Assembly: GCA_021773835.1 (NCBI GenBank)
Contig: JAJFJQ010000057.1
Location: forward strand, 62,001-126,000
Length of the DNA: 64,000 nucleotides
Direction of reading: 5' to 3'
DNA from: Gammaproteobacteria bacterium
GTDB lineage: Bacteria > Pseudomonadota > Gammaproteobacteria > Ga0077536
In this document: positions 38,289-42,000 of the stretch, one piece after another
How positions within the stretch are numbered: position 1 is the stretch's first letter
How the letters are laid out: each line of letters starts with the position of its first letter
The notes under the pieces: model-generated
What the model saw: only the letters and a program-made list of their open reading frames with translations
Database searches by the model: none
What the model was told of the DNA's origin: nothing
Position numbers and translations under genes: made by a program

Positions 38289-39182
38289 GTGGCTATGCTT
38301 GAGCAATCTCTGGCCACCTTCCAGGCCCAAGTTGACCGGGCCTTGGACCGGCACCTACCGTCTGCGGACCGCGATCCAAAACGGCTCCACAGCGCGATGC
38401 GTTATGCGGTACTGGGACCGGGGAAACGCGTTCGTCCGGTGCTCGTCTATGCCACCGGGCAAGCCTTCGAGACTGCCCTCGATAAGCTTGACGCCAGCGC
38501 CGTGGCGGTCGAGTTAATTCATGCCTACTCGCTGATTCACGACGATTTGCCGGCGATGGACGACGATGACCTGCGTCGCGGCCGTCCGACCTGTCACAAA
38601 GAATTTGACGAGGCGACCGCGATATTAGCCGGCGACGCACTCCAAGCACTGGCCTTTAGCGTCATTGCTGAGTGTAAAAGCACGTCGGTCACGCCGCCGC
38701 GCCGCATCGAGATGCTACGCACCTTGGCCCATGCGAGTGGTTCAGAAGGCATGGCTGGCGGTCAGGCAATGGACCTCGCAGCCGTCGGAACGCACTTATC
38801 GCTCGAACAACTCGAGACCATGCACCTGCACAAAACCGGCGCGCTGATCCGTGCGAGCGTCCAACTAGGCTATTTGGCTAGTCACATTGACGACCCGGCA
38901 ACCGCCGAGCGCCTCGACCACTATGCGCATTGCGTTGGCCTCGCCTTTCAGGTGCACGACGATATACTCGATGTCGAGGGGGATACTGCGGTAATTGGTA
39001 AACCTCAGGGCTCGGACATTGATCAAAACAAACCCACCTATCCCAACATCCTCGGTATGGCGGAGGCGAAGAAAACAGCTCAATCCTTATGTGATGAGGC
39101 GATTGCGAGTCTCGATAATCTTGGGCCTGCGGCAGACACATTACGGCAGTTGGCCGCCTACATCGTAAATCGAGACCGATAA
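38289..39182 (+). CDS. ispA: Farnesyl diphosphate synthase
   Basis: A 297-residue polyprenyl synthase. The first aspartate-rich motif is [19 protein letters not shown] and the second is [19 protein letters not shown] is the diphosphate-binding site. It condenses IPP with DMAPP and GPP to give FPP for quinones and undecaprenol. The listed start is a GTG five bases after xseB; an ATG two codons later is equally possible. dxs, which often follows, is absent here. Confidence 0.94.
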
Positions 39183-39398: not shown

Positions 39399-40223
39399 AT
39401 GAATCAGCCTGCACCTATTGCATCCACCATTCCAGACACGCAAAGCAGTGAAGACACGCGTCGGATCGCAATCGATCGAGTCGGGATAAAAGACATTAAG
39501 CACCCCGTCGTGGTGCGCGATCGTGCGGGTCGCGAACAGCACACGGTTGCGAACTTTAATATGTACGTGGGCCTACCGCATAAGTTTAAAGGCACCCACA
39601 TGTCGCGCTTTGTTGAAATTTTAAACCACCATGAGTACGAGATTTCGGTACCCACATTTAAGGGCATGGTAGACGAAATGACGAAGGTGCTCGATGCCGA
39701 ATTCGGCCGGGTTGAAATGACCTTCCCCTACTTCGTACAAAAGGCCGCGCCGGTCTCCGGGGTCAAGAGTTTGCTTGATTATGAGGTGACGTTTATCGGT
39801 GAGGTCGGGCAGGACGGGCCCTTAATATCCGTCAAGGTCGTCGTGCCATGCACCACCTTATGCCCCTGTTCGAAAAATATTTCCGATTATGGTGCGCATA
39901 ACCAACGCTCTCACGTGACCGTGGAAGTAAAGGTTAACGACTTCATGTGGATTGAAGAGCTGATCGACATTGTCGAGCAAGTCGCCAGCTGTGAACTCTA
40001 CGGCCTGCTGAAACGCCCTGACGAAAAGTACGTTACAGAACGCGCGTACGACAACCCGCGTTTTGTCGAGGATATGGTGCGTGAGGTAGCGCTGAAACTT
40101 AACGCAGAAGACAGAATCTTGTCTTATACGGTCGAGTCCGAGAACTTTGAATCGATCCACAACCATTCGGCCTACGCCATGATTGAACGCGACAAAACGG
40201 GTCGCGATCCCGCCGATTTGTAA
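39399..40223 (+). CDS. folE2: GTP cyclohydrolase I, FolE2 (type IB)
   Basis: A 274-residue FolE2. Diagnostic segments are [17 protein letters not shown], the metal-site Cys in [25 protein letters not shown], and [19 protein letters not shown]. It makes dihydroneopterin triphosphate, the first step to folate, and tolerates metals other than zinc. A 216-base region precedes it; I could not find a convincing Zur box. No FolE (type IA) gene is in the window. Confidence 0.95.
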
Positions 40224-40241
40224 TCCGCTCCAGGGTGACGA

Positions 40242-40272
40242 GAATTGTCAATTCACTGCCGCCGGCGGCAGT
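40242..40272. promoter_or_regulatory. Two abutting palindromes, candidate upstream activator sites
   Basis: GAATTGTCAATTC (40242-40254, perfect around a central T) directly abuts ACTGCCGCCGGCGGCAGT (40255-40272, perfect 9+9). They lie about 100-125 bases before the predicted start of the small RNA, a distance usual for enhancer-binding activators of sigma-54 promoters. The second could instead be a folE2 3' hairpin, though only TTT follows. Confidence 0.45.
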
Positions 40273-40299: not shown

Positions 40300-40320
40300 T
40301 AGTTTACGTCTCCTAAACTA
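40300..40320. promoter_or_regulatory. TAGTTTA/TAAACTA inverted repeat
   Basis: TAGTTTA (40300-40306) and TAAACTA (40314-40320) are exact inverted copies with a seven-base spacer, ending 23 bases before the sigma-54 -24 box. The following stretch is A/T-rich and could allow bending. It is a candidate activator or modulator site. Confidence 0.35.
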
Positions 40321-40343
40321 TTGATTTTAATTGTTTTAGTGTG

Positions 40344-40360
40344 TTGGCACGCACTTTGCT
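40344..40360 (+). promoter_or_regulatory. Sigma-54 promoter (-24/-12)
   Basis: TTGGCACG-CACT-TTGCT matches the sigma-54 consensus YTGGCACG-N4-TTGCW at every defined base, with GG (40346-40347) and GC (40358-40359) exactly ten bases apart. The expected start is near G40371. No protein-coding frame follows before a terminator at 40420, so the transcript should be a short RNA. Confidence 0.85.
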
Positions 40361-40370
40361 GCTATTTCAG

Positions 40371-40446
40371 GTACGCAAGCGGCCTGCATGGCCTTTGCGC
40401 TCCTCCCTTTGGTCCATTTACGGGTGCTAACGCACCCGTTTTTTTT
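40371..40446 (+). ncRNA. Predicted sigma-54-dependent small RNA, about 76 nt
   Basis: The predicted transcript starts 12 bases after the -12 GC and has three parts. A 5' hairpin pairs CGCAA (40374-40378) and GGCC (40381-40384) with GGCC (40390-40393) and TTGCG (40395-40399). An unpaired pyrimidine-rich region begins with CTCCTCCC (40400-40407), which is complementary to Shine-Dalgarno-like GGGAGGAG. An intrinsic terminator follows. This is the usual layout of Hfq-type trans-acting sRNAs. It matches no sRNA I know by sequence; sigma-54-dependent sRNAs such as Qrr, NrsZ, CrcZ and GlmY show the control mode is established. Expression is inferred. Confidence 0.7.
40420..40446 (+). terminator. Intrinsic terminator of the predicted small RNA
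   Basis: ACGGGTGC-TAAC-GCACCCGT followed by seven or more T residues (40440 onward). It is a strong rho-independent terminator read only on the plus strand; the reverse orientation lacks a U-tract, so it does not serve mazG. Confidence 0.9.
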
Positions 40447-40460
40447 ACCTGGCGAATCGG

Positions 40461-41237
40461 TCATTCTGCCAATTTCGCTGCCTCCCACAGATCGTCCATA
40501 CGTGCTAGAGACGCATCCCGCACGTTCGTCCCCGCATCTTCGAGGGCGGCTTCGATGAAATGAAACCGCCGTTCAAATTTGCGGCTGGCGCCGCGTAGGG
40601 CTTTTTCCGGGTCCACACCAAGGTGGCGCGCCCAATTGACGCAGGCAAAAAGCAGATCACCCATTTCTTGTTCGATATCAGGCCGAGATCCATCCGCAAT
40701 CGCCACCTCAACTTCGTTAAATTCTTCAACCAGCTTTTCTTTGACGCCGACCATATCGGGCCAATCAAATCCGACTCGGGCGGCCCGTTGCTGCATCTTC
40801 TTCGCGCGGGTCAGCGCCGGCATGCTCACCGGAATACCATCGAGTTCGCTCCTTGGCTGGCCCGGTTTAGCAGCGGCACGCTCTTGTGCCTTCTGGGCCT
40901 CCCACCGGCGCGTCTGTTCGATTGCATCGCCTGGCGGCGCATCGCCGAATACGTGGGGATGGCGCTCGGTCAATTTTCGGGCCAGCGCGGCGACGATGTC
41001 GTCGAAATCGAAGCGCCCCTGCTCGCGCCCCAATTGAACGTAGAACACGACCTGGAACAGTAGATCGCCTAATTCGCCGGGAAGTTCATCCAGCGCCTCC
41101 CGCTCAATGCAATCGGCGACTTCATAGGCTTCCTCGATAGTGTGCGGAACGATTGATTCAAAGCTTTGTGCTAGATCCCACGGGCAGCCATTTTGCGGAT
41201 CGCGTAGCCGGCGCATAATTTCGAATAGTTCGTCCAT
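40461..41237 (-). CDS. mazG: Nucleoside triphosphate pyrophosphohydrolase
   Basis: A 258-residue tandem MazG protein. The first domain has CPWDLAQSFESIVPHTIEEAYEV and ELPGELGDLLFQVVFY with the EExxE/ExxD magnesium residues; the second has KEKLVEEFNEVEVAI and EQEMGDLLFACVNWARHLG. It hydrolyses NTPs to NMP and PPi, limiting aberrant nucleotides. It is convergent with the small RNA locus. Confidence 0.94.
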   Translation of the reverse strand: MDELFEIMRRLRDPQNGCPWDLAQSFESIVPHTIEEAYEVADCIEREALDELPGELGDLLFQVVFYVQLGREQGRFDFDDIVAALARKLTERHPHVFGDAPPGDAIEQTRRWEAQKAQERAAAKPGQPRSELDGIPVSMPALTRAKKMQQRAARVGFDWPDMVGVKEKLVEEFNEVEVAIADGSRPDIEQEMGDLLFACVNWARHLGVDPEKALRGASRKFERRFHFIEAALEDAGTNVRDASLARMDDLWEAAKLAE

Positions 41238-41415
41238 TGTATTTACGGCATTGATTTGATTATTTCGACAAGCCGATTAGGCCATACGGATCCGTGCGAT
41301 CGCAATCCGATAGACCAGTGTCGCCGGCAAGGGATTGCACTTGAGACCGCTTCGAGTGTATAGATTAGCCTTTGCGCGGACCTATCGATAGACTGTGTCT
41401 TGGAGATACAGAAGC

Positions 41416-42000
41416 ATGAACCGAGCACCGTTAATTCTAAGACTTGATGTTGCAGGAACCCCCCTACGCTGGGTCCCGTGGCAGGACGCCGTATGCCTCT
41501 ATAGCCGCGACTTAGTTGCCTGGACCATTGGCGACAACGAATTTACCTTTCTCGGCGGCACGTCACGCGATACGGGCGACCGCTCATCGGTGACCGTAAA
41601 CTCCATTATCGCTATCAAACGGTCCTCTCGCGGGCGCCACGTCCAACGCCATGTACCGCCGCTGAACAACCATGAATTATTCCGGCGAGACGGTTATATG
41701 TGTATGTATTGCGGGTCCCAGCTCGGCGAACATCAACTAACCCGTGACCATGTTATCCCGCTCTCAAAAGGCGGACGTGATCGATGGTCTAATGTCGTGT
41801 CCGCGTGTCGTTCCTGTAATACACGCAAGGGTTGCCGCACACCGGAAGGCGCCTCTATGCCACTACTCGCCGTGCCATATGTACCCAACTGGGCCGAATT
41901 CCTTGCCTTGTCCAACCGTAAAATACTCGCCGACCAGATGGAGTTTCTGCGGTCTCAATTTAACCGGAAGAATCGTCTGTTCCCAATTAGCCCGAATTAA
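41416..42000 (+). CDS. HNH endonuclease family protein
   Basis: A 194-residue protein whose C-terminal half is an HNH domain: FRRDGYMCMYCG, then LTRDHVIPLSKGGRDRWSNVVSACRSCNTRKG, with paired CxxC zinc ligands and the His-Asn-His core. This stand-alone form (about 190 residues) is common in proteobacteria and its role is not established. ATG 41416 has GGAG ten bases upstream and was preferred to a GTG seven codons earlier. Confidence 0.88.
   Translation: MNRAPLILRLDVAGTPLRWVPWQDAVCLYSRDLVAWTIGDNEFTFLGGTSRDTGDRSSVTVNSIIAIKRSSRGRHVQRHVPPLNNHELFRRDGYMCMYCGSQLGEHQLTRDHVIPLSKGGRDRWSNVVSACRSCNTRKGCRTPEGASMPLLAVPYVPNWAEFLALSNRKILADQMEFLRSQFNRKNRLFPISPN

Follow-up and report, generated by a model that had tools for sequence, protein, structure and literature searches.

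Positions 40344-40446 of the window (the whole 64-kb stretch of DNA that was analysed) read as one transcription unit, in which a promoter is followed in turn by a hairpin, a C-rich stretch and a GC-rich stem-loop with a T tract behind it. The best reading of these letters is a free-standing small-RNA gene. The unit was judged to be real because relatives conserve it, and this is the decisive evidence; at the level of sequence, the observation of a sigma-54 small-RNA unit is confirmed. We consider it probable that the product is a trans-acting predicted sRNA, dependent on sigma-54 and activated by an enhancer-binding protein and IHF, which pairs with Shine-Dalgarno regions.

The upstream neighbours ispA (38289..39182) and folE2 (39399..40223) lie on the + strand with the small-RNA gene, and the downstream neighbour mazG (40461..41237, - strand) is convergent with it; the three gene names are our presumptive assignments from the protein sequences. 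An HNH endonuclease-like gene (41395-42000) follows mazG in the window. By tblastn, 10 of 10 carriers within the family have the unit flanked by mazG on one side and by ispA or folE2 on the other, in constant orientation, and ispA is found upstream in all of them. The placement between folE2 and mazG given in the preliminary description is correct for the window genome, but folE2 adjoins the unit in only 3 of the 10 carriers (G000, G001, G012).

The predicted -24/-12 promoter TTGGCACGCACTTTGC (40344..40359, + strand) agrees with the sigma-54 consensus and reads TTGGCACG-CACT-TTGC-T over 40344-40360, with GG (40346-47) and GC (40358-59) ten bases apart; eleven bases separate the box from the inferred RNA start. 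It is the sole exact consensus match in 64 kb. When up to 2 mismatches were allowed, 6 matches were obtained in the 64 kb compared with 6.06 expected, and the other five all carried 2 mismatches. The GG-N10-GC promoter was kept together with the RNA in all ten family carriers, in agreement with the initial account of a perfect promoter with this spacing. Mean pairwise identity among the ten was 0.86 for the -24 box and 0.79 for the -12 box, whereas it was 0.42 for the promoter spacer, 0.34 for the leader to +1 and 0.31 for the 60 nt upstream. Because the similarity matches to relatives spanned the core and terminator and never the promoter, these promoter identities are free of search bias. 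rpoN (PF04552) was encoded by all ten carriers (G000 among them) and, counting these, by 33 of 36 family genomes; the three without a match (G002, G003, G021) are all incomplete. Another exact sigma-54 box, TGGCACGGTCTTTGC, occurs in the window's own genome (L218:2129) immediately ahead of a pair of consecutive genes, of which the downstream one encodes an enhancer-binding protein.

The predicted small RNA is about 76 nt long (40371..40446, + strand), its start being placed by promoter spacing. A fold of -30 kcal/mol (z = -3.66) was obtained for the 77 nt that begin at 40371, and 0 of 200 shuffled sequences folded equally well. In the predicted fold a 5' hairpin (40374..40399, + strand) is followed by a nearly unpaired middle that includes CTCCTCCCTTTGGTCC (40400..40415, + strand), the presumed seed for pairing with Shine-Dalgarno regions, and by a terminator stem at 40420-40439. 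The letters of the hairpin vary and its pairing is kept: 9 of 9 pairs were altered on both sides across the ten sequences, and the covariation score was 0.316 compared with 0.154 for shuffles (0 of 500 reached it) and ≤0.127 when the hairpin was slid. In the wider set of 21 sequences the score was 0.618 compared with 0.173, for an alignment fitted to the model. The covarying pairs in the ten carriers support the 5' hairpin first noticed in the window alone. The hairpin of G022 and G016 (L006, L011) holds a second CCTCCC, like the loops of several copies found across the class.

Pairwise identity over the ten genomes was 0.96 for the core CCTCCCTTTGGNCN, a value biased upward since the relatives had been found through core and terminator. 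The unpaired element conserved in the ten carriers is CCUCCCUUUGGUCC; the C-rich stretch of the preliminary description is present, but its extent had been drawn too short, the conserved element CUCCUCCCUUUGGUCC being longer than the CTCCTCCC given there. The strong intrinsic terminator described after the unpaired stretch (40420..40446, + strand) was recovered by fold and alignment as the stem ACGGGTGC/GCACCCGT and a T tract of seven T (eight counting the last base of the stem), and is shared by the aligned carriers. The statement that no coding frame is present needs amending for the window, where one frame from an ATG at 40388 traverses the RNA; this ATG is not conserved, the RNA being without any ATG in 5 of 10 carriers and having ATGs at differing positions in the other five.

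Relatives were sought by several means. A DNA similarity search of 58 genomes, including the window's own, gave nine homologues (E 5.6e-13 to 0.025), the weakest of which (G017, E 0.025) is not convincing by itself; a short pattern recovered the same ten genomes, i.e., 10 of 36 in the family, with 0 matches for the reversed control. The ten scored at least 77 bits with a covariance model that had been trained on them. Fourteen of the 36 family genomes passed E 0.001, and carriers were counted as the ten at ≥77 bits, so that a remnant (L044), a possible relative (L045) and terminator-like matches (L046-L048) were not included. In the ten aligned copies the promoter bases, C-rich core and terminator are common to all, whereas spacer, leader and hairpin letters diverge. 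A covariance search of relatives had been proposed at the outset as a check; comparison of the carriers shows that promoter, hairpin and terminator are kept together as one unit. Nine contigs, all from MAGs, matched in a GTDB contig scan with the exact pattern; one MAG contig titled Klebsiella pneumoniae (CAMCBY010000133.1, L055) is evidently a mislabelled record.

mazG was located in 30 of the 36 family genomes, with the unit at 10 and none at 20 of these 30 loci. At 18 of the 20 unit-free loci, ispA or folE2 ends just 22-115 nt from mazG (measured between tblastn match ends). In G003, which shares its genus with the window, the gap is 114 nt and the unit is missing, and G011, which is one of the 18, has a decayed core and terminator behind ispA with the promoter gone (L044:1501-1599). 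With 20 of the 30 mazG loci in the family lacking it, the element is dispensable; most unit-free genomes have rpoN, so that loss of this gene is no general explanation for the missing unit. PF00158 matches numbered 7-27 in carriers and 1-15 in non-carriers, a comparison in which all 14 control genomes also match and in which genome size and kinship are confounded. The preliminary description had named retention of the flanking genes with drift of the element at neutral rates as an outcome that would count against it. Genes kept with the element lost do occur, at the 20 loci above, where the cassette is present or absent in its entirety, but the ten carriers gave no sign of neutral drift of promoter or core.

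Copies extend beyond the family. R1, a covariance model built from the ten family copies, matched 24 of 369 genomes sampled from the class Gammaproteobacteria at E 1e-4, and 21 of these were outside the family; in the GTDB sense the class would include the former betaproteobacteria. Five of the 22 non-family loci in the 21 genomes adjoin mazG in the same orientation (L166, L167, L170, L173, L183). These come from five genomes of four families, three having ispA and/or folE2 on the other side, and are the best argument for a common ancestral copy. The copy in G166 (L208, 41 bits) adjoins an HNH gene (L208:2735-3286, Pfam HNH) 50% identical to that of the window, and no mazG match was found in the 5.1-kb stretch examined there.

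A wider covariance model, R2, was made from 21 sequences, 11 of them non-family copies from the same genome sample; R1 and R2 gave the window RNA 88.8 and 78.9 bits, respectively, with the window RNA in both training sets. R2 matched 38 of the 369 class genomes (32 of 272 sampled genera), of which 12 are not independent (the 11 non-family training copies and G012). Among 398 genomes drawn phylum-wide, a draw that is not a clean outgroup in that the 20 non-matching genomes listed are all of the same class, R2 gave 2 matches, the window's own genome and the dubious G477, where the matched sequence has neither GG-N10-GC nor a CTCC motif. The phylum-wide draw shows that chance matches to R2 are rare and that the cassette is missing from many lineages within the class. 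GG-N10-GC was exact in 38 of 40 wider copies. CCTCC, CTCCT or CTCCC was present in the body of 36 of the 40 (11.3 expected from shuffles) and of 25 of the 29 copies outside training (8.6 shuffled, maximum 16), the shuffle control being lenient since the motif adds to the model score at one position; in several class-wide copies the C-rich stretch lies inside the loop of the hairpin, where it earns no such score.

The copies away from mazG adjoin purB, purL, purH, DUF2130, S41-protease, glycosidase and other genes, and may be either true relatives or independently built sigma-54 cassettes. Copies are in tandem in G213 and G068 and occur as separate pairs in G063 and G140. Two tandem cassettes share one intergenic region at L213:2501-2790 and at L202:2501-2861, in two different families, where they adjoin an S41 protease gene and a DUF3413/sulfatase gene, respectively.

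Upstream of the promoter, an IHF-like site TAAACTATTGATT (40314..40326, + strand) is an exact match to YAANNNNTTGATW; what we take to be the IHF consensus underlies both this pattern and YAANNNNTTGWTW. With ≤1 mismatch, YAANNNNTTGWTW, one position of which was relaxed after viewing the sequences, was found 29-32 nt before the start of TTGGCA in 20 of 48 copies, against a position-window mean of 0.76 (L181 and L203 of the 40 wider copies were left out of this count). The IHF-like site supports the promoters independently because the models contain no such site. A site at the fixed offset was missing in 5 of the 10 family carriers.

The -24 box is preceded, at a distance of about 110 nt, by a putative activator site with the palindromic consensus GCGTCGnnAAnCCGACGC (40234..40251, + strand), which is weak and degenerate in the window. 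A Gibbs search of the ten upstream regions gave a width-14 motif that lands at these same positions, and a palindromic width-18 motif scored 106.4 compared with ≤62.1 in eight base-shuffled sets (4 restarts compared with 12 for the real regions). The pattern GTCGG-N4-CCGAC, which was fixed post hoc after the motif search, had a mismatch sum of 15 in the ten family members, where 200 shuffles gave a mean of 28.8 and a minimum of 23; it was unsupported in 21 wider upstream regions (66 mismatches; mean 73.5, minimum 65). The palindrome differs from the GlrR site, TGTC-N10-GACA in passages of PMC4987338 and PMC8745638, and from what we take to be the NtrC site. TGTC-N10-GACA was not above shuffles in the family or the wider set, and the AauR-type site TTCGG-N4-CCGAA (from a passage of PMC7962211), like the family palindrome by eye, was yet not enriched at ≤1 mismatch. 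In 37 wider upstream regions YGTC-N8-GACR was above shuffles, TGTC/GACA being found 8 times (mean 2.1, maximum 4) and CGTC/GACG, again with spacer 8, 10 times (mean 2.8, maximum 8); this spacer-8 form came from 130 pair/spacer/set combinations and is only a lead. L181, L203 and L171 of the 40 wider copies were left out of the counts for the GlrR-type, AauR-type and spacer-8 patterns.

Eleven enhancer-binding proteins were read, i.e., nine of the 14 PF00158 matches in G000 and two of seven in G001. In an NCBIfam scan of 10 of the 11, GlrR was closest for two in G000 (547 and 598 bits; cut-off 763) and for one truncated protein in G001 (472 bits, same cut-off), and one protein in G000 was NtrC, over its cut-off. 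GlrR-like regulators, at least two of which are in G000, are one candidate for the activator of the sRNA; of the nitrogen, carbon or envelope state that the sRNA was initially proposed to report, nitrogen found no specific support. A GlrR-like enhancer-binding gene adjoins a double SIS-domain gene in G000 and G001, both of the same genus (L222:784-3300, L226:3-1968). Enteric GlrR controls amino-sugar synthesis through GlmY.

In the mechanism that we propose, an enhancer-binding protein would bind about 110 nt upstream of the promoter, aided by DNA bending at the IHF site, and the activated sigma-54 polymerase would make the 76-nt RNA. Hfq would bind its U tail, the C-rich stretch would pair with several mRNAs at their G-rich Shine-Dalgarno region, whether or not the GGACCAAA side takes part, and pairing would lower their translation. 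The unpaired core complements Shine-Dalgarno sequences plus a specific GGACCAAA extension. Full-complement targets in the ten carrier genomes (GACCAAAGGGAGG at ≤1 mismatch, and CAAAGGGAGG before a start codon) numbered 11 non-self compared with 28 reversed controls in one comparison and 7 non-self compared with 6 in another. A unique full-complement target was rejected, since matches did not exceed the reversed controls and fell in no gene common to the carriers. Since no full-complement gene is shared, any mRNA pairing would be by partial matches at many ribosome-binding sites, in the manner of the alphaR8 RNA SisA (PMC12559287, in part). The earlier notion of a riboregulator pairing with G-rich Shine-Dalgarno regions accordingly keeps its conserved complementary C-rich stretch but lacks a conserved full-complement target.

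The RNA might instead be sigma-54 dependent and act mainly by titration or mimicry, as GlmY does, with the C-rich stretch capturing a protein or another RNA. The near-invariance of the core over 14 nt would suit a single partner, no conserved mRNA complement was found in the ten carriers, the genome encodes GlrR-like regulators, and, according to part of PMC12559287, a sponge RNA binds alphaR8 sRNAs, which carry a comparable 10-mer. However, CCUCC is able to pair with any GGAGG Shine-Dalgarno sequence, and the same source, in part, has the alphaR8 RNA SisA, with an anti-Shine-Dalgarno 10-mer, repressing mRNAs by pairing. We regard action of this kind as unlikely and prefer pairing with Shine-Dalgarno regions.

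Two other readings are far less likely still. Since mazG is transcribed toward the RNA, its stop just 14 bp from the T tract in the window genome, the RNA could act in cis as antisense against the 3' end of the mazG mRNA; we give this very little credence, as the distance to mazG varies among carriers (reaching some 300 nt in G012), no coding sequence overlaps the conserved core in the window, and similar cassettes are found outside the family at many other loci. That the locus is only a terminator of the ispA-folE2 transcript plus a chance -24/-12 box, for which a terminator scan at chance level (2 found, 2.6 expected in a 2-kb stretch, and uninformative alone) and the promoterless remnant right after ispA in G011 might speak, is highly improbable given promoter bases conserved in ten carriers while spacer and flanks diverge, the hairpin covariation, and similar cassettes away from the ispA-folE2 operon.

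The claim that the sRNA was undescribed stands: no Rfam family reached threshold in the window or in 18 wider loci, and full-text searches of a set of open-licence papers yielded nothing that describes the motif or the locus. A search of that set for sigma-54-dependent sRNAs by name turned up only the enteric glnA 3'-UTR sRNA; to our knowledge, few sigma-54-driven sRNAs have been described. The window gave no Rfam match to GlmY/GlmZ, nor to Qrr, CrcZ and NrsZ, counting whichever of these three have models. From its sequence features we file the sRNA as a new family, resembling sigma-54-driven anti-Shine-Dalgarno sRNAs and outside all named families tested. Its promoter, IHF-like site, seed and synteny can all be traced through relatives, and one culturable copy could yield regulator, signal and targets.

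The nearest sub-threshold Rfam matches with a CCUCCCU-like stretch were ncS16, suhB/MmgR and SorX. The ncS16 model (RF02866) aligns over its full length, with 19.9 bits in the window compared with a gathering score of 48; unlike the window sRNA, ncS16 starts in the ompA 3' UTR, and pairing of CU-rich Burkholderia RNAs at ribosome-binding sites by partial matches is predicted (both from portions of PMC5688073). The SorX consensus (RF02784) has an unpaired ACCUCCCUGUUGGA before the terminator; the relative L173 scored 21.2 bits, below the gathering score of 46.6, and there was no SorX match in the window. NrsZ of Pseudomonas is an RpoN-dependent sRNA, as is proposed for the window RNA, but is about 226 nt, lies in the ntrC-PA5126 interval and is driven by NtrB/C (PMC8395346, in part).

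GlmY of Escherichia coli shares with the window sRNA a sigma-54 box (by eye), upstream palindromes and an IHF-like TAACTCATTGATT. It differs in that the E. coli region has three exact TGTC-N10-GACA sites, which are not enriched upstream of sRNAs of the window type, in that its IHF-like site is 177 nt away from the RNA, on the upstream side, and not at the fixed offset seen here, and in that it is 184 nt long, between purL and glrK, and without such a C-rich core. The sigma-54 cassette at L178:1501-1625, which has an exact IHF-like site, lies beside purL, without an adjoining glrK and with no Rfam match; it possibly links GlmY with the sigma-54/C-rich class.

The Rfam consensus of alphaR8 (MmgR/SisA-D; RF00519 suhB) has, like the window sRNA, a hairpin, an unpaired CUCCCU and a terminator. 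Sections of PMC7143759 describe MmgR as 77 nt with an anti-Shine-Dalgarno motif, listed RpoD and RpoN promoters and induction by NtrC, and SisA pairs through its 10-mer with 5' UTRs (PMC12559287, in part). In contrast, alphaR8 belongs to Alphaproteobacteria and a different locus, its consensus is without the UUUGGUCC half, and the RF00519 gathering score of 41 was not reached (window 15.2, G017 23.4, L169 24.0, with the C-rich stretch misaligned). We suggest tentatively, as a possibility that falls somewhat short of an even chance, that the RNA forms one branch of an ancient class of CCUCC sRNAs, not yet catalogued, that sigma-54 and IHF drive in many gammaproteobacterial families. Some lineages would have kept them at mazG, while in others they would have moved, been doubled or been copied in tandem. 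Such a class would give an enhancer-binding protein direct global control of translation and would be the counterpart of alphaR8 in alphaproteobacteria and of GlmY in enterics. The CCUCCCU core in common with alphaR8 RNAs raises the testable question of common descent versus convergence.
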